Shown piece after piece: positions 38,649 to 46,174 of a stretch of DNA of 64,000 nt. Made by a program: the position numbers and the translations under genes. Source of the stretch: Chloroflexota bacterium. Its GTDB lineage: Bacteria > Chloroflexota > Anaerolineae > Anaerolineales > VGOW01. Numbering within the stretch: the stretch's first letter is position 1; each line of letters begins with the position of its first letter. Location of the stretch: positions 1-64,000 of the forward strand of contig JACPWC010000064.1 in assembly GCA_016197225.1 (NCBI GenBank), in the 5' to 3' direction. The notes under the pieces were generated by a model. That model was not told the DNA's origin. It saw only the letters and a program-made list of their open reading frames with translations, and made no database searches.

Positions 38649-38692
38649 GAAGTTAGAGGGTAGAGATTGGAGAATTAGAGATTAGAGATTGG
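38649..38692. repeat. Word repeat at the aldolase 3' end
   Basis: A run of the words GGTAGAGATTGGAG, AATTAGAGATTAG and AGATTGG (single arm). The stop codon and last ten codons of the aldolase lie in it, giving the tail SLISNSPISTL. Confidence 0.7.
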
Positions 38693-39453
38693 ATTTCGGC
38701 GGCGATGGCTTTGATCAGAGTCTCATCATCTACATGCCGGCCCGAGGGGTGCGGCACGCCGCAGTAGCGGCAGAACTCGTCGGCGTCGGTGGCGCGGGCC
38801 AGGCCCCATTGTTGGCGCGTTTCGATAAGCTTTTGCACCTGCTCCGGCGGCAGTGGCTTTACCTCACCCAACATCCGCGCCTGGGCGATGATCTTCGCCG
38901 TATGCTCCAGAGACTCCAACTTCAAGTAAGCGTCCCACACCGTCGGCCCAACCGTGAGCGAGCCGTGATAGGCCAGCAGGATCGCATCGTGCGTCTTCAC
39001 CAGTTCCGAGATCGCTTGCTGGTTCTCCGCCGAGGACGGGTTGGCGTAAGGCGTGGTGGGGATCGCGCCGAACAGCAGAACCGATTCCGGGATGATGCAG
39101 TCAGTGAGAGGGACGCCGACGATGCTCAGGGCAACGGAGGTGATCGGGTGGGCGTGGATGACGCCGTTCACGTCCGGGCGCTGGCGATAGGCCTCAAGGT
39201 GCATCAACAGTTCCGAGGTGGGCTTGAGGCCGGGCGGGGTTGGCGGCACGAGCTTGCCGTCCGAGTCCACCACGATCAATTGATCGGGTGAGAGGAAGCC
39301 CTTGGCCAGGCCGGAGGGCGTTGCCAGAATCCGATCCGGCCCCAGGCGAGCCGAGAGGTTGCCGGAGGCCCCGTCCACAAATTCAAACTGGTGCATCAGC
39401 TTGCCGACGCGGACGATTTCGTGGCGAAGTTCGGTTTCGCTAATTTGAGGCAT
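38653..39453 (-). CDS. Class II aldolase (fuculose/rhamnulose-phosphate type)
   Basis: A 266-residue zinc aldolase of the FucA/AraD/RhaD family. The zinc site is intact: Glu81 in TSELLMH, His100 and His102 in VIHAHP, His163 in AYHGS; SGNLS near residue 30 binds phosphate. Family members cleave fuculose- or rhamnulose-1-phosphate to dihydroxyacetone phosphate and lactaldehyde, reactions used by some BMCs (Planctomycete-type). Its ATG follows the receiver-protein stop with no gap, so it is translated from the BMC-associated operon. The last ten residues come from a repeat. Confidence 0.88.
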   Translation of the reverse strand: MPQISETELRHEIVRVGKLMHQFEFVDGASGNLSARLGPDRILATPSGLAKGFLSPDQLIVVDSDGKLVPPTPPGLKPTSELLMHLEAYRQRPDVNGVIHAHPITSVALSIVGVPLTDCIIPESVLLFGAIPTTPYANPSSAENQQAISELVKTHDAILLAYHGSLTVGPTVWDAYLKLESLEHTAKIIAQARMLGEVKPLPPEQVQKLIETRQQWGLARATDADEFCRYCGVPHPSGRHVDDETLIKAIAAEIQSLISNSPISTL

Positions 39454-40266
39454 TCAGGACAGTTCAGCGTCGAGTTTGAGGATGGGGAGCGTGCGCTCGT
39501 TGTTGTTGGCGTCGTGGGCGCGAACGGCCTCGCCCTCGCGCTGGCCGAACGAGTAGTGCTGGTGGGCGCGCTCGTCGAACTGTTTGACGACGGTTTCGAC
39601 GATTTCATTCGCCTGGCCGGCGGCGCAGATGATCACAAAGGTGTCGTCGCCCGACTGGCCGAGAAAGTCGTCGGCCTGACCCAGATCGTTGAGGACACTG
39701 TTGAGCAAAAGGGCGGTGGCCCGAATGACGTCGGTGACGGCCAGCGAGCTGTACAAGTCGCGGAAGTGATCCAGGTGGTGGAGATGGAAGGTGATGGTTT
39801 TGCGGTTGGGCAAGTTGGCAACGCGCGCCATTTCCTGGCGCACGGCCTCGAGGGCCGGCAGGCCGGTGCGCGGGTCGGTGAGGCTGTTGCGGGCCGAGCG
39901 GCTGATGGCGTTTTGCACGCGCAGGAAAAGTTCTTCAAGATCGAACGGCTTGGCGATGAAGTCGTCCGCGCCCAGGCTCAGGCCTTCCATTTTGTCGGCT
40001 TTGCGGTCGCGCTTGGTGGCGAAGATGACGGGCAGGTGACGGCCCCGCGCCGTCTGCCTCAAGGTGCGGCAAACGGTGAAGCCGTCAATGTCGGGCAGGC
40101 CGACGTCGAGCAGGACGAGGCTGGGCAGGTCGGTGCGGCAGGAGCGAATGGCCGTTTCCCCGTCGTAAGCCACCAGCACATCGTAGCCATGCGACGAGAA
40201 AAAGAAGTTGAGCATCTCGGCCACTTCAACATTGTCTTCGACAATCAGAATCCGGGGTTTGGTCAT
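39454..40266 (-). CDS. Receiver protein with degenerate GGDEF-like domain
   Basis: A 270-residue response regulator. The receiver domain (4-120) has the phosphoacceptor Asp54 in VLLDVGLP and the conserved Lys in IAKPFD. The second half resembles a GGDEF domain (SLTDPRTGLPALEAV, QSGDDTFVII) but the GGDEF motif reads SGDDT, so diguanylate cyclase activity is unlikely; it may bind nucleotide or serve in partner binding. It overlaps the upstream CpaE-like gene by ATGA and touches the aldolase start. Confidence 0.85.
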   Translation of the reverse strand: MTKPRILIVEDNVEVAEMLNFFFSSHGYDVLVAYDGETAIRSCRTDLPSLVLLDVGLPDIDGFTVCRTLRQTARGRHLPVIFATKRDRKADKMEGLSLGADDFIAKPFDLEELFLRVQNAISRSARNSLTDPRTGLPALEAVRQEMARVANLPNRKTITFHLHHLDHFRDLYSSLAVTDVIRATALLLNSVLNDLGQADDFLGQSGDDTFVIICAAGQANEIVETVVKQFDERAHQHYSFGQREGEAVRAHDANNNERTLPILKLDAELS

Positions 40267-41408
40267 AACTTTTGCAAGAGCGCGCCGAGCGCGGCAACAT
40301 ACGGCGAGTTGGGTTGGGTGAAGGCCAGCGGCGCGCCCTGGAAGAGCGAGACCATGTGAGCGTGGTCGTATGGCAACGTGGCGTCAATCGGGCGGTTGAG
40401 GGCCTTTTCAATCCGGTCGGGCAGGAGCATTGGGTCGTTTGGCGTGGGATGATTGATCACCACGCGCCAGGTGTTGGGCGAGATTTGCATATTAGTCATG
40501 ATGGCGAGGGTAGTGTTGAGGGTTTGGATGGAAGCGACTTCAGGCGCGATGGGCAGGATGATGTCGTTCGCCAGAGCCAGCGCGGCGCGGGTTGCGCCGT
40601 CGGGCGTGGGGGCGGCGTCCACCACCACATCGCCGAACACGTCGAGCAGGAGGCGGAACGTTTTGGCGAAGGCATCGGCGGGGATGATTTCGGTTGGCGG
40701 GGCTTCGGGCGAGGCCAGCAGGTGCAGGCCCGATTTGTGTTTGAGCAGAAGCGCGCCAACGGTAGGCAGGGCCGGGTTGGCCGGCAAGTCGGCCCACGAG
40801 GGCTTGGGCCGCAGGCGCAACATGAGGGCGGCGTGGCTGGAGGTGGGCGAAAGATCGACCAGGCAGACCCGGCGGCCGGCGCTGGTGAGGACGCTGGCGA
40901 TGTTGACGGCGAGGGTGGTGGAGCCAACGCCGCCCCGCCAGCCGGCGACGCAGATGAGCCGACCCGCGCGCGGGGGCGGCGCGGAGGTGGCCGGGGCCGC
41001 CGACGAGGCGGTGACGGCTTCCCCTTCTTTAGCGGCAGTGGAACCGGTGATGAGCAGTTCGGCTATCTTGGCGTTGAGGGCTTCAATGGCAACCGGTTTG
41101 GAGAAGTAGGCGTCGGCGCCGGCAACGATGGCCGATTTTTGATCGACGGGCTGGGCGCGGGCGGTGAGGACGATGATGGGGATGTTCTGAGTGGCCGGGG
41201 CGGCGCGCAGGCGGCGGGCCACTTCGTAGCCGTTCATGTCGGGCATCATCACGTCGAGCAGGAAAATATCAAAGGGTTGTTTTTCGGCCAACTCCAGCCC
41301 GGCAGCGCCGTTGGAGGCCAGCGTCACTTCGTGTCCACTGCGCTTGAGCATGATCTGCATCATGGTACGCAGGCCGTCGTCGTCGTCAACAATGAGGATT
41401 CGGGCCAT
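40263..41408 (-). CDS. Receiver domain fused to a CpaE/ParA-like ATPase
   Basis: A 381-residue protein. The receiver (3-118) has Asp52 (LLDVMMPDMNG) and Lys104 (FSKPV). After an Ala/Pro linker comes a MinD/ParA-type domain with VAGWRGGVGSTTLAVN: the P-loop lysine is replaced by Ser163, as in CpaE/TadZ proteins, then LVDLSPTS and VVVDAAPT. Such proteins localise machines to cell sites. No tad pilus genes are near; the neighbours are microcompartment genes, and the McdA family that positions carboxysomes is also ParA-like, so a role in placing the compartment is conceivable (inference). Confidence 0.85.
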   Translation of the reverse strand: MARILIVDDDDGLRTMMQIMLKRSGHEVTLASNGAAGLELAEKQPFDIFLLDVMMPDMNGYEVARRLRAAPATQNIPIIVLTARAQPVDQKSAIVAGADAYFSKPVAIEALNAKIAELLITGSTAAKEGEAVTASSAAPATSAPPPRAGRLICVAGWRGGVGSTTLAVNIASVLTSAGRRVCLVDLSPTSSHAALMLRLRPKPSWADLPANPALPTVGALLLKHKSGLHLLASPEAPPTEIIPADAFAKTFRLLLDVFGDVVVDAAPTPDGATRAALALANDIILPIAPEVASIQTLNTTLAIMTNMQISPNTWRVVINHPTPNDPMLLPDRIEKALNRPIDATLPYDHAHMVSLFQGAPLAFTQPNSPYVAALGALLQKL

Positions 41409-41929
41409 TAGATGTTTTCTCCGCAAAACAAGTCTACGCGAACGCGATTGACTAAGATGGCTTCGCTTGAGAATTGAACTTGCGGTTGGACGCACAGGCT
41501 GGCGGTGGCGCTGAAAATCGGGAAGAAGCGCGGGTTGCCGTCGAGCAGGACGGATTCGGGGTCAAGCTTGCCGGCCTGCTCCAGCACACCGCGCATCTCG
41601 AAGGCGCGGGTGATGATGAGCACGTTATGGTGGGCTACTCGGGTGAGGCCGGGGCGGGTGGTGGAGGCCGTCACGTTGCGTTTGGCCAGGGCGATGAAGT
41701 CGAGCGAAACTTTGGCAATGCGGATGGCGGCGAAATGGGCCATGATGGTGCCCGGCTCCTGGATGCGCGAGAGATAGGCGTTTTCAATCGTGGCAAACGT
41801 CCGGCTGGTGTCGCTGAGCAGGCCGCTCAGCCCGGAGGCTCCCACGCCGAGCGAACCGGTGATCCGGTAAGTTGGGGTGAAAAAGTCGCCACTGACTTGT
41901 TGGACAACCCGCGCGCGTTCTGTAGTCAT
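41408..41929 (-). CDS. Protein of unknown function in the BMC locus
   Basis: A 173-residue protein I cannot assign. It starts MTTERARVVQQVSGDFFTPTYRITGSLGV, has a middle part RVAHHNVLIITRAFEMRGVLEQ and ends VQFSSEAILVNRVRVDLFCGENI. Beta-rich, no signal or membrane segment, no cysteine clusters. A 161-base gap separates it from eutN, so it may begin a second transcript comprising itself, the CpaE-like protein, the receiver protein and the aldolase. It overlaps the next gene by one base. The position hints at a cargo or adaptor role. Confidence 0.72.
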   Translation of the reverse strand: MTTERARVVQQVSGDFFTPTYRITGSLGVGASGLSGLLSDTSRTFATIENAYLSRIQEPGTIMAHFAAIRIAKVSLDFIALAKRNVTASTTRPGLTRVAHHNVLIITRAFEMRGVLEQAGKLDPESVLLDGNPRFFPIFSATASLCVQPQVQFSSEAILVNRVRVDLFCGENI

Positions 41930-42090
41930 AATAGCTCCATTGAGTTGCCGCAGATTGTAGAATGAGTGGGCAGAAAAGACAACTGGGACAGGAGGCAGGG
42001 GCATTCCAGTTGGGGTGAAGTTCTGGCAGGCCACCCTTTAATCCGCCCTCCTCCGCTGATTCAGGGACGGGCTTGGTTTTGCCGGGACTG

Positions 42091-42360
42091 TCACTCCACC
42101 ATCGTCGAATCCACAATGCCTACGATGACTGAAATCACGCAAGCGTCGGGGTTGTTGAGGACCTGGCGCGCGCCGTTGCCTTCGCGGTTCACCAGCACCG
42201 TGTCGCCAATTCCGGCGTGAGAATTGTCCAGAGCCAGAAAATCACCGTCTTCCGGCTGGCCGGGCAGGGCTAGCGGCTGAACGACCAGCAGCCGCCGGTT
42301 CTTGTAGTGCGGGTGGCTGATGGTGGTGACGACGGTGCCGACGACTTTGCCGATGATCAT
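42091..42360 (-). CDS. eutN: EutN/CcmL vertex protein (BMC-P)
   Basis: An 89-residue BMC-P pentamer protein, which caps the vertices of microcompartment shells. The fold signature is complete: MIIGKVVGTVVTTISHPHYK, LLVVQPL, HAGIGDTVLVNREGNGARQVL and SVIVGIVD. The ATG overlaps the stop of the vertex-cyclase fusion gene as ATGA. It may form mixed pentamers with the EutN domain of that fusion (inference). Confidence 0.95.
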   Translation of the reverse strand: MIIGKVVGTVVTTISHPHYKNRRLLVVQPLALPGQPEDGDFLALDNSHAGIGDTVLVNREGNGARQVLNNPDACVISVIVGIVDSTMVE

Positions 42361-44198
42361 GGTTCTTTCACCGTCCACAGTTCAAACATCTCTCCCTCAA
42401 ACCCTTTTAACTCTGCTTCAAACGGCTCGGTGTGTAAATCGCCGCTTGCCAGCCAGGCCTGAACTTCCGGGTCGGCGTGAACGGCGGCAGAGATCACCAC
42501 GCCATCGCGTTCGCTGGAGAAACCTTCGAGCCGGGCGGCGATGTTGACGGTTGAACCAAAGTAGTCGAGGCGATCATTTAGCGTGACAGCCACACACGAT
42601 CCGGTGTGAATTCCGGCCTTGAGTTGGAGGGGGAAGCTGCCGGGCCTCGGGTCGGCTAATGTCTTTTGGGCGCGCAGGACGGCGCGCAGGGCGGCCACCG
42701 GGCGGCGAAAGGCGGCCATCACTGCATCGCCGATGGTTTTGACAATGGCCCCGTCCTCGGCGGCGATGGCCTGCTTGAGTATGTCGAAGTGATCCATCAC
42801 CCGGCCAAAAGCCACGGCGTCGCCGTCTTCACGATAGAGTCGAGTGGAGCCGCGCAAGTCGGTGAAGAGCACAGTGAGACTGCCCACCGAAATTTTCTCA
42901 CCGGGGCGCAAGGCCTCATTGGCAAACAAGTCGCGGAACACTTGCAGGGTCGTCACCTCGGCGGCGGTCACGGCCTGATCGTTCCAGGCGGTGCGCTCCA
43001 GGATGAACAGTTGCTCTTTGTCCGTCGCGTTTTCAAGGTTCATCGTTGGCGTGAGCGAGAGCAGAACTTCGTCGCCTGGCCAGCCGGAGTCGGCGGCTTG
43101 AAAGGCGGCGTCGGGCCGGCCTTGAGCGTTGGCGGCGAGTGACTGACCGCCGCGCAGTTCGAGGGCGCGCAAACGATAACGGCCCTCGTCGAGCGGCAGT
43201 GATAATTCGCGGCGCTCGCCGGGCGCGAGCAGTTGTTGGGCCACGATGTGCGGCGTGATCTGCGGCCCGCCCACGCAAAACTGGAAAGGGACGCAGGGCC
43301 GCACTGCCGGGTTGGGGCGGAAGGTCAATTCCACCGAGCGATCAAAGTTGGCGGTGAAGTCAATGTTGCAACTGTCACAATGCACTTGGGGCGAGATGCC
43401 GCCAAGCGAGTCACTGCTGTTCTTCGGCCCCCGGCAGAGCGGGCAGAGCAAATCCCATTGAAAATCCAGCAACCCGGCGCGCACCGCTTGCAAGCAGGTG
43501 GTGAGCACGTCACGGCGGGGCTTCTCCCAAAAGTCGGCCAGGGCGTAGGGGCGGATTCGGAACAGGGCCATGTCGTCGGCCTGCTCGATCAACTCCACCA
43601 ACAAGTCCACAATGTCCCGCGAAGCGCCGTTGTTAATTAAGGCTTCGCGCAGTTTGACGAGTCGCTCGCGCCCGCCGGGCGCAAACTCGACGCGGCTGGC
43701 CGGGAGTTCGATAGCCGAAGGTTTGACTTTGGCGGCCTCGCGGTCGTACCGGCGGAATACTTTGTCGGAGCCGTAATAACTCAACACGCCAACTTGAGCC
43801 GGGATGGCGATGAGGCCGAAGAGATTCCGGGGGCGCGCCCACACATCATAAACGAGCCGCGTGCCGCCGCCGGGCTGGGGAGTCATCTCGGCGACGGTGC
43901 GAAGCTCGGCCACAAAATCGAATCCGTCCTTACGGACTTCTAATTCATCTATTACGCCGACCACTGCCAGGTCAACAGGGACAAACTTGACGTCGTGCAT
44001 GGCCAGCGATGCCTCGCGGGCGCGGACCATCACCACCAGGTCGCCCGGCCCGGCGTGGACAACGTCGGCGGCCACCTGCACCCGGCCCAGAGGCTCGAGT
44101 TTTTTGTTGAGGGGTTGAACGGTGAGCAGTTTCACGCCGTCGAGGTCAGGGTATTTGATGGTGCAAACGGCGGAACCGAGGATGCGACCCAGAAGCAT
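42357..44198 (-). CDS. EutN domain fused to DUF5939 and a class III nucleotidyl cyclase
   Basis: A 613-residue fusion. Residues 1-88 are an EutN/CcmL domain (MLLGRILGSAVCTIKYPD ... HAGPGDLVVMVRAREAS ... VVGVID). Residues about 95-155 look like the C-terminal half of an SRPBCC domain (PGGGTRLVYDVWARPRNLFG), 160-300 a DUF5939 region with a zinc-ribbon-like CPLC ... CDSC pair, and 435-613 a class III cyclase with metal Asp447 (LFTDLRGST), KTIGDAVMA (Lys488, second metal Asp) and VNIAARLEG. These residues predict active cyclase, probably adenylate. In usual cyclases of this kind the SRPBCC domain is whole; here EutN takes its N-terminal half. Co-translated with eutN. Confidence 0.93.
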   Translation of the reverse strand: MLLGRILGSAVCTIKYPDLDGVKLLTVQPLNKKLEPLGRVQVAADVVHAGPGDLVVMVRAREASLAMHDVKFVPVDLAVVGVIDELEVRKDGFDFVAELRTVAEMTPQPGGGTRLVYDVWARPRNLFGLIAIPAQVGVLSYYGSDKVFRRYDREAAKVKPSAIELPASRVEFAPGGRERLVKLREALINNGASRDIVDLLVELIEQADDMALFRIRPYALADFWEKPRRDVLTTCLQAVRAGLLDFQWDLLCPLCRGPKNSSDSLGGISPQVHCDSCNIDFTANFDRSVELTFRPNPAVRPCVPFQFCVGGPQITPHIVAQQLLAPGERRELSLPLDEGRYRLRALELRGGQSLAANAQGRPDAAFQAADSGWPGDEVLLSLTPTMNLENATDKEQLFILERTAWNDQAVTAAEVTTLQVFRDLFANEALRPGEKISVGSLTVLFTDLRGSTRLYREDGDAVAFGRVMDHFDILKQAIAAEDGAIVKTIGDAVMAAFRRPVAALRAVLRAQKTLADPRPGSFPLQLKAGIHTGSCVAVTLNDRLDYFGSTVNIAARLEGFSSERDGVVISAAVHADPEVQAWLASGDLHTEPFEAELKGFEGEMFELWTVKEP

Positions 44199-44201
44199 TG
44201 A

Positions 44202-44282
44202 TGATTTTAGATTTTAGATTGCCGATTTTGGATTGTGGACTGGCGCTGCAATCTAAAATCCAAAATCTAAAATCCAAAATCT
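44202..44282. repeat. Imperfect palindrome between the small BMC gene and the cyclase fusion
   Basis: Words TTTTAGATTTTAGATT and GATTTTGGATTG on the left, AATCTAAAATCC and CAAAATCTAAAATCC on the right, around GTGGACTGGCGCTGC. It touches the stop codon of the upstream gene. Confidence 0.8.
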
Positions 44283-44595: not shown

Positions 44596-44667
44596 AATGC
44601 ACAATTCTCAATGCTCAATTTACAACGCTCGAAGAATTGCGCATTATGAATTGTGAATTGAGAATTA
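44596..44667. repeat. Imperfect palindrome between BMC-T and the small gene
   Basis: Words CACAATTCTCAATGCTCAAT and TATGAATTGTGAATTGAG around AACGCTCGAAG. It touches the stop of the BMC-T gene. Confidence 0.8.
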
Positions 44668-45294
44668 CCTTCCCGGTGTTCCTTCCAACTCTTCAATCGC
44701 CTTCACCGCCGCGTTGCGGGCAGTGAGAATTTCGGCCTCGGAGCCGGAGAGCCACATGCGGCCAAAGCGGCCCACCGACGAGACGTGCAGGATTTTGATG
44801 TTGGCGCCTTTCTCGGCCTCGTTGCAGGCATAGTTGATGTAGGCCGCCGGGGCGCACTCCAGCACCAGCATCGTCTCGCCCGGCACCAGCATACTGCCGC
44901 GCCGGAAGCGGTTGAGCAATTGCGCCTGGTACGGGTCTACATTGGTGATGACCTGCACCGAAGCAATCTCCGGCTTCACCCGGTCTTTGACTTGCAGGCC
45001 CAGCCTTTGCAAAACAATGCGCCCGGCCTCCAGCACTTCGGATTGCGATCTGGAGTGAACCTCGAACATGCCAAACTCGCGTTCGACCAACTGCGCGCCC
45101 GGTTTGGCCTCGGTGGCTTTCACGGCAATATCCACCATGCGGAAGGCTTCGTTGCCGGGGGCCATTTCAATGTAGAGCGAAGCCATGCCCTCGGTGGGCA
45201 AGTCGCCTTGAGTGATCGTGCCTACGAAAGCGGCATACTGCGGTTGCATTCGATCAAGATAGGAATAACATCGTAATTGAAAACCGTCGGCCAT
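44665..45294 (-). CDS. Tandem-domain microcompartment shell protein (BMC-T)
   Basis: A 209-residue protein with two BMC domains. Domain 1 (about 38-100) contains AFRMVDIAVKATEAKPG and GRIVLQRLG; domain 2 (about 140-205) contains MLVLECAPAAYINYACNEAEKGANIKIL and ILTARNAAVKAIEELEG. It forms pseudo-hexameric trimers that tile shell facets. AGGAG lies before the ATG at 45294. It is the only BMC-domain facet protein in the window; no BMC-H is present, and trimers of this type may carry gated pores. Confidence 0.9.
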   Translation of the reverse strand: MADGFQLRCYSYLDRMQPQYAAFVGTITQGDLPTEGMASLYIEMAPGNEAFRMVDIAVKATEAKPGAQLVEREFGMFEVHSRSQSEVLEAGRIVLQRLGLQVKDRVKPEIASVQVITNVDPYQAQLLNRFRRGSMLVPGETMLVLECAPAAYINYACNEAEKGANIKILHVSSVGRFGRMWLSGSEAEILTARNAAVKAIEELEGTPGR

Positions 45295-45309: not shown

Positions 45310-45366
45310 CTCAATTCACAATTCTCAATGCGCAACTGAGAATTGTGAATTGCTAATTGTGCATTG
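45310..45366. repeat. Imperfect palindrome between eutJ and BMC-T
   Basis: Words CAATTCACAATTCTCAATG and GAGAATTGTGAATTGC around CGCAACT. The stop and last three codons of eutJ (MHN) lie inside it. Confidence 0.8.
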
Positions 45367-46165
45367 CGATGCCCAGCGGCGTGATAAACAATGGTTTGCC
45401 AGGCACTATTGTATTGATTCCTGTGTATTCGGCCACCACCCGATCCATGCCGGGGTAGGCGCACGTGCCGCCCACCAGATAAATCGTCTCCACGTTTTGC
45501 CCGGCGATGTGCCGCTGAACAATGTTCCCCACTTTCTCCATCACAGGCCGGATGAGGGGGAACAGCCGCGCTTGCTCGGCAGGAGTCGTCTTCAAGCGTT
45601 CGGCCTCTTCAAACGAAATGTTGAGCGCCCCGGCGATGACGAGCGAGAAGTGCGTGCCGCCCGTCGGCTCGTCGGCAGTATAAACGACTTCGCCGTCTTT
45701 GAACACGGCCACGCCGGTGGTGCCGCCGCCCACGTCTACAATCGCCCCGTCTCGGATTCCCAGCACGTTATTGGCCGCCGTCGGCTCGTCCACCAGGCCG
45801 GTGCATTCCAGGCCGGCGGCGCGGAGGACGTTGGCTGTGGCCCGCACTTCGGCCTGCGGCACGCCGGGCGGGTAGGCGCTGGCTGCCGACTCGAGCGGGA
45901 AGCCGAGACGTTCTTCGACCCGCGCCTTCATCTGGCGCAGTAAATCCACCGCGCCGACAAAATCCACTACCAGCCCGTCGCGAGTTACTTGAGCAAACTG
46001 ATAATCGCCGGCGATCGGTTGTTTGTGCTCGTCGAGCACGGCCAGCACGGTGTAAGCCGTGCCCAGGTCAACGCCCACGTGAACCGGGCCGCGATAGTGG
46101 CCGTTGGCGCGACCGGCCATGACGGCGTCGGTGTGGGTGAGGAGAGAGTTGAGGTTGGGGTTCAT
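45353..46165 (-). CDS. eutJ: EutJ-family chaperone-like ATPase
   Basis: A 270-residue actin/Hsp70-fold protein of the EutJ family found in BMC operons. Nucleotide-site segments: VHVGVDLGTAYTVLAVLD, GAIVDVGGGTTGVAVFKDG, and VETIYLVGGTCAYPGMDRVV. EutJ is thought to act as a chaperone or reactivating factor for the compartment or its enzymes. Start at 46165; the ribosome binding site is weak. It is the first gene of the BMC locus on the minus strand. Confidence 0.9.
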   Translation of the reverse strand: MNPNLNSLLTHTDAVMAGRANGHYRGPVHVGVDLGTAYTVLAVLDEHKQPIAGDYQFAQVTRDGLVVDFVGAVDLLRQMKARVEERLGFPLESAASAYPPGVPQAEVRATANVLRAAGLECTGLVDEPTAANNVLGIRDGAIVDVGGGTTGVAVFKDGEVVYTADEPTGGTHFSLVIAGALNISFEEAERLKTTPAEQARLFPLIRPVMEKVGNIVQRHIAGQNVETIYLVGGTCAYPGMDRVVAEYTGINTIVPGKPLFITPLGIAMHN

Positions 46166-46174
46166 ATCCAAAAT

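Follow-up and report, generated by a model that had tools for sequence, protein, structure and literature searches.

The window, i.e. the whole stretch of 64,000 nucleotides of Chloroflexota DNA that was analysed, carries a co-directional microcompartment operon that encodes, in transcription order, EutJ, BMC-T, a small protein, a fusion protein, eutN2, an unknown protein, a receiver-ParA-like ATPase, a receiver/weak GGDEF protein and a class II aldolase (Table 1). The frame of the fusion gene is open in the assembly, and its product of 613 aa begins as a BMC-P (EutN/CcmL) vertex protein and ends as a class III nucleotidyl cyclase. Its stop codon overlaps the start of the free-standing eutN2 as ATGA (eutN2 ATG at 42360), just as an earlier note on this DNA had read it.

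Table 1. Features of the microcompartment operon and domains of the fusion protein, with the basis of each assignment
Feature	Position	Strand	Basis
EutJ-family chaperone-like ATPase	45353..46171	-	PRK15080 / TIGR02529 above cut-off
BMC-T shell trimer, CcmP-like	44665..45294	-	NF053796 E 3.5e-77, 258.8 bits, below the equivalog cut-off of 340
Small conserved protein, 101 aa	44281..44586	-	tblastn in related loci that hold eutN1; no Pfam match
Fusion gene, whole frame	42357-44198	-	open frame, 613 aa
Fusion: eutN1 part, BMC-P (EutN/CcmL), residues 1-94	43917..44198	-	PF03319; eutN1 of G003; PDB 2qw7
Fusion: SRPBCC remnant, residues 95-160	43719..43916	-	similarity to the free cyclase of G069
Fusion: DUF5939, residues 188-301	43296..43637	-	PF19363 E 1.1e-15, above curated cut-off
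Fusion: class III nucleotidyl cyclase, residues 438-605	42384..42887	-	PF00211
eutN2, free-standing BMC-P	42091..42360	-	PF03319 E 6.3e-21; start overlaps fusion stop
Unknown protein	41408-42034	-	
Receiver domain and ParA/MinD-like ATPase	40263-41495	-	
Receiver domain, then weak GGDEF match	39454-40266	-	GGDEF E 2e-4, below cut-off
Class II aldolase	38653..39453	-	PF00596 E 1.3e-44; co-located in G003, G069 and G002

The earlier note had claimed that EutN/CcmL, DUF5939 and a class III cyclase are joined in one 613-residue protein, leaving the strand (minus) unstated, and Pfam matches above the cut-offs bear this out. A match of the EutN domain to PF03319, which that note had set as a test, was obtained over residues 1-84 with 76.5 bits against a cut-off of 25 (E 2.4e-21), and profile positions 1-83 are fully covered. 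The strongest solved relative of the EutN part is the CcmL structure PDB 2qw7 (E 5.7e-12), and the same part is 87% identical to the free-standing eutN1 of a sister species in the same genus (G003). At the other end, Guanylate_cyc PF00211 matches residues 438-574 above its curated cut-off (E 9.7e-15), and in Foldseek the cyclase domain matches solved adenylyl cyclases. The catalytic residues, all described as visible, are indeed present and six key ones (D447, K487, D491, D545, N552 and R556) are invariant among the homologues in alignment A4, except that the lysine is residue 487 and not, as had been numbered, 488. We take D447 and D491 to bind metals, N552 and R556 to serve the transition state, and K487 and D545 to form the purine pair, presumably of the adenine type.

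Set beside the protein families that it joins, the fusion departs from both in size or completeness. Like other BMC-P vertex proteins (PF03319; EutN, CcmL, CsoS4), it has the full-length domain and lies among microcompartment genes, with the CcmP-like BMC-T, EutJ and eutN2 nearby; free BMC-P proteins, in contrast, are compact, about 90-110 aa, and eutN1 orthologues keep a C-terminal tail of ~10 residues, whereas the eutN1 part is fused at residue 94, lacks the eutN1-type tail and is followed by about 520 more residues. As a class III nucleotidyl cyclase, it shows the PF00211 domain, both metal-binding aspartates, the Asn/Arg couple and the Lys/Asp pair. It likewise resembles the SRPBCC-DUF5939-class III cyclases of Chloroflexota and Acidobacteria in having DUF5939 beside the cyclase and in all six key residues, and its residues 95-613 share 64% identity with the free cyclase of a genome from another family (G069), with 58% identity over residues 96-187. 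The free family has a complete SRPBCC-like N-terminus, but the fusion lacks about two thirds of it and carries EutN instead.

Judged by gene content, the compartment is of the SPU type, marked by RpiB and DeoC, with an EutBC satellite. Both pfam01791 (DeoC) and pfam02502 (RpiB) occur in the system, as RpiB and DeoC are encoded with a third BMC-P (eutN3) on contig C58 of the same genome; contig C126 encodes EutB, EutC, one BMC-H and a two-domain BMC-T. The combination of RpiB and DeoC is the signature that SPU microcompartments share, among which SPU6 has been reported from Anaerolineae together with EUT-like satellites (PMC8217296). The arrangement in the window's genome, i.e. a locus with RpiB, DeoC and BMC-P and a satellite with EutBC, BMC-H and BMC-T elsewhere, resembles SPU6 (Sutter et al. 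2021, PMC8217296), the agreement with that subtype, which is marked by its own AldDh and set of shell proteins, being confined to the EUT-like satellite and the taxon. The text of the SPU catalogue (PMC8217296) mentions no cyclase, whereas the window's operon has a fused one. The genome holds its eutN1-type BMC-P only as the fusion, alongside the two other BMC-P genes, eutN2 and eutN3. Several further features of the operon may be recorded here. The receiver-ParA/MinD-like ATPase and the protein that precedes it are both conserved in another genome, G002 (45%), and possibly form a positioning system like McdA or a CpaE-like one. In related loci, the small protein between BMC-T and eutN1 varies in its middle and is conserved towards the C-terminus, in a segment that might be an encapsulation-type helix. 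AT-rich, repetitive intergenic blocks at 44210-44280 and 44600-44660 (of the AATCTAAAATC and CAATTCACAATTC types) flank this small gene and resemble short repeated elements.

The two parts of the fusion meet at F94/V95, in frame and without a linker. The eutN1 of G003 ends in ...GFDFEFRSGFTRYT and a stop codon, the fusion reads ...GFDF/VAELRTVAEMTPQPGGG across the join (slash), and the G069 cyclase reads ...GPVGEMRVLAELTPQPGGG at the corresponding region. Homology to the free cyclase begins at V95, and the ~95 residues with which the free cyclase starts have no counterpart in the fusion; this bears out the earlier proposal of EutN standing in for the N-terminal portion of the SRPBCC domain. 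Lost from the other partner is the C-terminal tail of ~10 residues that every complete free eutN1 examined has kept, and the junction thus interrupts conserved parts of both genes. When taken alone, the N-terminal piece of the G069 free cyclase matches Polyketide_cyc2/SRPBCC weakly and below the cut-off (E 6e-4), which is consistent with an SRPBCC identity. A free homologue (L021), modelled with low confidence, begins with a strand, two helices, further strands and a long helix, a helix-grip-like arrangement; by this model, the junction falls just ahead of the sixth strand (95-106) and two strands and the long C-terminal helix remain. With mean pLDDT values of 63 and 58, the single-chain AlphaFold models are of low confidence, and only the order of strands and the fold of the cyclase were taken from them; the EutN part was modelled without alignment depth, the retained SRPBCC piece is of low confidence, and an alignment in which P0002 had been misplaced was kept out of folding. 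A search for the missing SRPBCC half across the window's genome did not find it elsewhere; one weak match, on contig C91 (E 0.155), was set aside, as no open frame there reads SRPBCC-like.

Elsewhere in Chloroflexota, even within the same genus, EutN and the cyclase are encoded separately, the cyclase by a SRPBCC-DUF5939-cyclase gene of its own; the expectation that relatives would share the fusion, which had also been offered as a test, thus failed. In G003, eutN2 starts 36 bp past the free eutN1 with no cyclase between them, and the cyclase homologue, broken in that assembly, sits on a different contig; eutN1 and eutN2 are also adjacent in the outgroup loci. In G069, the order is eutN1, an Imm5-like gene, a complete SRPBCC-DUF5939-cyclase of 629 residues, an FAD oxidase and eutN2, and this is the one other locus among those examined that has a cyclase, as a separate gene, in the microcompartment operon. 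In G002, the corresponding gap is occupied by genes for DUF433 and DUF5615 proteins and by the C-terminal remains of a G069-type FAD oxidase; the G024 contig ends in a piece of an oxidase gene that lies next after eutN1. Within the clade, the eutN1-eutN2 gap is insertion-prone (L029 8880-12949, L040 7632-9835, L039 4491-4791), its contents including Imm5-like, cyclase, FAD oxidase and DUF433/DUF5615 genes as well as remnants. In a maximum-likelihood tree, the window's cyclase is sister to that of G069 (support 99/93) and apart from the other cyclases of its genus, while the operon tree has an open polytomy at the depth of the window's locus, G069 and G002. Two congeneric species have free cyclase homologues (L030 6759-8575 and L034 1253-3047) that are broken in their assemblies by a frameshift or an internal stop, reflecting either decay or sequencing error.

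A search for EutN and cyclase in one protein, as the earlier note had proposed, returned no second case in about 1,000 Chloroflexota genomes drawn from order, family, class and phylum (overlapping samples, among them 301 genomes for the order, 396 for the class and 400 for the phylum). Strong, near-full-length matches to the cyclase begin no earlier than query residue 89, mostly at 93-109, and matches to eutN1 stop by residue 101. With a query that spans the junction, eutN1 homologues were found in 97 of 261 genomes of the order and the junction was crossed in an open frame by the window's gene only, a single eutN1 match elsewhere running to residue 123 through five stops; the other 96 genomes have eutN1 free-standing, and none has it fused. 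Long frames around EutN in G018, G066, G204 and G191 were ruled out as fusions, since only the upstream frame is open and the EutN proteins end at 107-130 residues. Neither a search of plasmids nor one of GTDB and viral contigs, the latter by peptide patterns of the protein, found the fusion. In the literature on microcompartments with a cyclase domain or DUF5939, partly judged by titles, no described case was met, and no BMC-P joined to a signalling enzyme was found in either the literature or the genomes searched.

Taken together, the gene is probably a lineage-specific, one-off deletion fusion and not an established signalling device, the one-off reading following from the fact that none of the ~100 related eutN1 genes checked carries the fusion. 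A SRPBCC-DUF5939-class III cyclase gene would have been inserted, along with unrelated genes, between the tandem eutN1 and eutN2 of an SPU-type operon, and a deletion would then have taken the end of eutN1, i.e. the conserved tail and stop, plus the start of the cyclase gene, leaving the remainders joined in frame. That a deletion was the mechanism, and in exactly which sequence insertion and deletion took place, we infer from comparison among loci. Given the gap contents of G069, G002 and G024 and the cyclase tree, the window's locus most likely descends from an inserted state from which both flanks of the cyclase were lost; since the operon tree leaves open whether the insertion is shared by descent with G069 and G002, an already truncated cyclase may instead have been inserted into eutN1. 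An error of assembly or binning, in which the contig wrongly merges an eutN1 gene and a cyclase gene that are separate in the organism, would also yield such a frame, and the 126 contigs of the genome, the single copy of the junction, and its lack of confirmation in any second assembly or other genome all leave room for it. Such an artefact is nonetheless unlikely, the least probable of the readings weighed here, because the join is in frame and at corresponding homologous ends, the missing SRPBCC half has no second copy in the genome, comparison of the junction with the G003 eutN1 and the G069 cyclase reveals no evident long shared sequence, codon-position GC is alike on its two sides (0.71 and 0.74), and the nearest relative of the cyclase occupies the same operon gap in G069.

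By its sequence, neither part of the fusion is decayed. The frame has no stop and no frameshift, and of the columns that 31 other homologues conserve, 3 are changed in the window's protein, an unremarkable number within the set. For the EutN part compared with G003, dN is about 0.09 and dS about 0.97, similar to the values for BMC-T and eutN2; since the constraint so measured mostly predates the fusion, these values speak for a lack of decay and not for selection on the fusion, giving it no date and fitting a young neutral fusion as well as a selected one.

Class III cyclases act as dimers. The BMC-P fold is expected to survive in the fused chain; should the EutN domain pentamerise, eutN1-type vertices would carry cyclase domains, which crowding on the pentamer could favour as dimers. 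The expected product is cAMP, because K487/D545 is an adenine-type pair, and the natural input of the cyclase family has probably been lost, because the SRPBCC sensor is destroyed. The fusion could thus decorate shell vertices with a sensor-less cyclase; that it forms pentamers, takes this place on the shell, is active as a cyclase and plays no evolved part in signalling are all projections from the gene and its relatives. The exterior face is the likelier one for the cyclase, since C-terminal tags on BMC-P have been used to pull down, and thereby purify, whole shells (PMC10853475).

The shell-signalling reading of the earlier note stands as far as its parts, the intact active site, the operon (EutJ, CcmP-like BMC-T and two BMC-P) and the eutN2 overlap are concerned, but not as an evolved, recurring device, given that the site takes in and erodes foreign genes and that the junction breaks into conserved sequence on both sides. 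It is accordingly doubtful that the protein is a vertex-borne second-messenger module maintained by selection because its cAMP, produced at the shell, signals assembly or cargo state, and equally doubtful that, as a natural vertex with adenylyl cyclase, it yields shell-surface cAMP in proportion to assembled compartments. Such a module would explain why both parts are intact without excess change at conserved columns, co-directional with EutJ, BMC-T and eutN2 and coupled to the last by the stop/start overlap, why the genome has no other eutN1-type BMC-P, and why two receiver-domain proteins lie downstream in the same direction; it sits poorly with the absence of a second case from about 1,000 Chloroflexota genomes and from the 96 other eutN1 carriers of the order, the destroyed sensor, the presence of a cyclase in only one other microcompartment operon (G069) among the loci examined, and the lack of an identified cAMP target. 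Somewhat more credible, if still less probable than not being so, is that the product is unused as a vertex, with the C-terminal bulk or the loss of the tail blocking pentamer packing, eutN2 and eutN3 capping the shells, and the cyclase either soluble or encoded by a gene heading to decay. The two other BMC-P genes, the lost conserved tail and the low confidence of the retained SRPBCC piece in the model all favour this outcome, against which the gene is so far free of stops, frameshifts and excess substitutions; being compatible with a deletion origin, it shares part of the probability assigned to that origin.

BMC-P and BMC-H fusions have been engineered for shell decoration and purification, and C-terminal additions to BMC-P are tolerated and accessible (PMC10853475, PMC11346464), but the additions to BMC-P are small designed tags, whereas the window's gene arose naturally and attaches an entire enzyme. 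Because no other BMC-P joined to a signalling enzyme was found in the literature and genomes searched, even a one-off deletion fusion is a natural test of how much C-terminal load a vertex can bear. If the protein does not enter shells, then a deletion at an insertion-prone gap has yielded a striking but probably incidental domain architecture, and the case cautions against inferring function from single fusions. If it does, an enzyme-decorated vertex would be available ready-made, together with a means of linking shell assembly to a second messenger.
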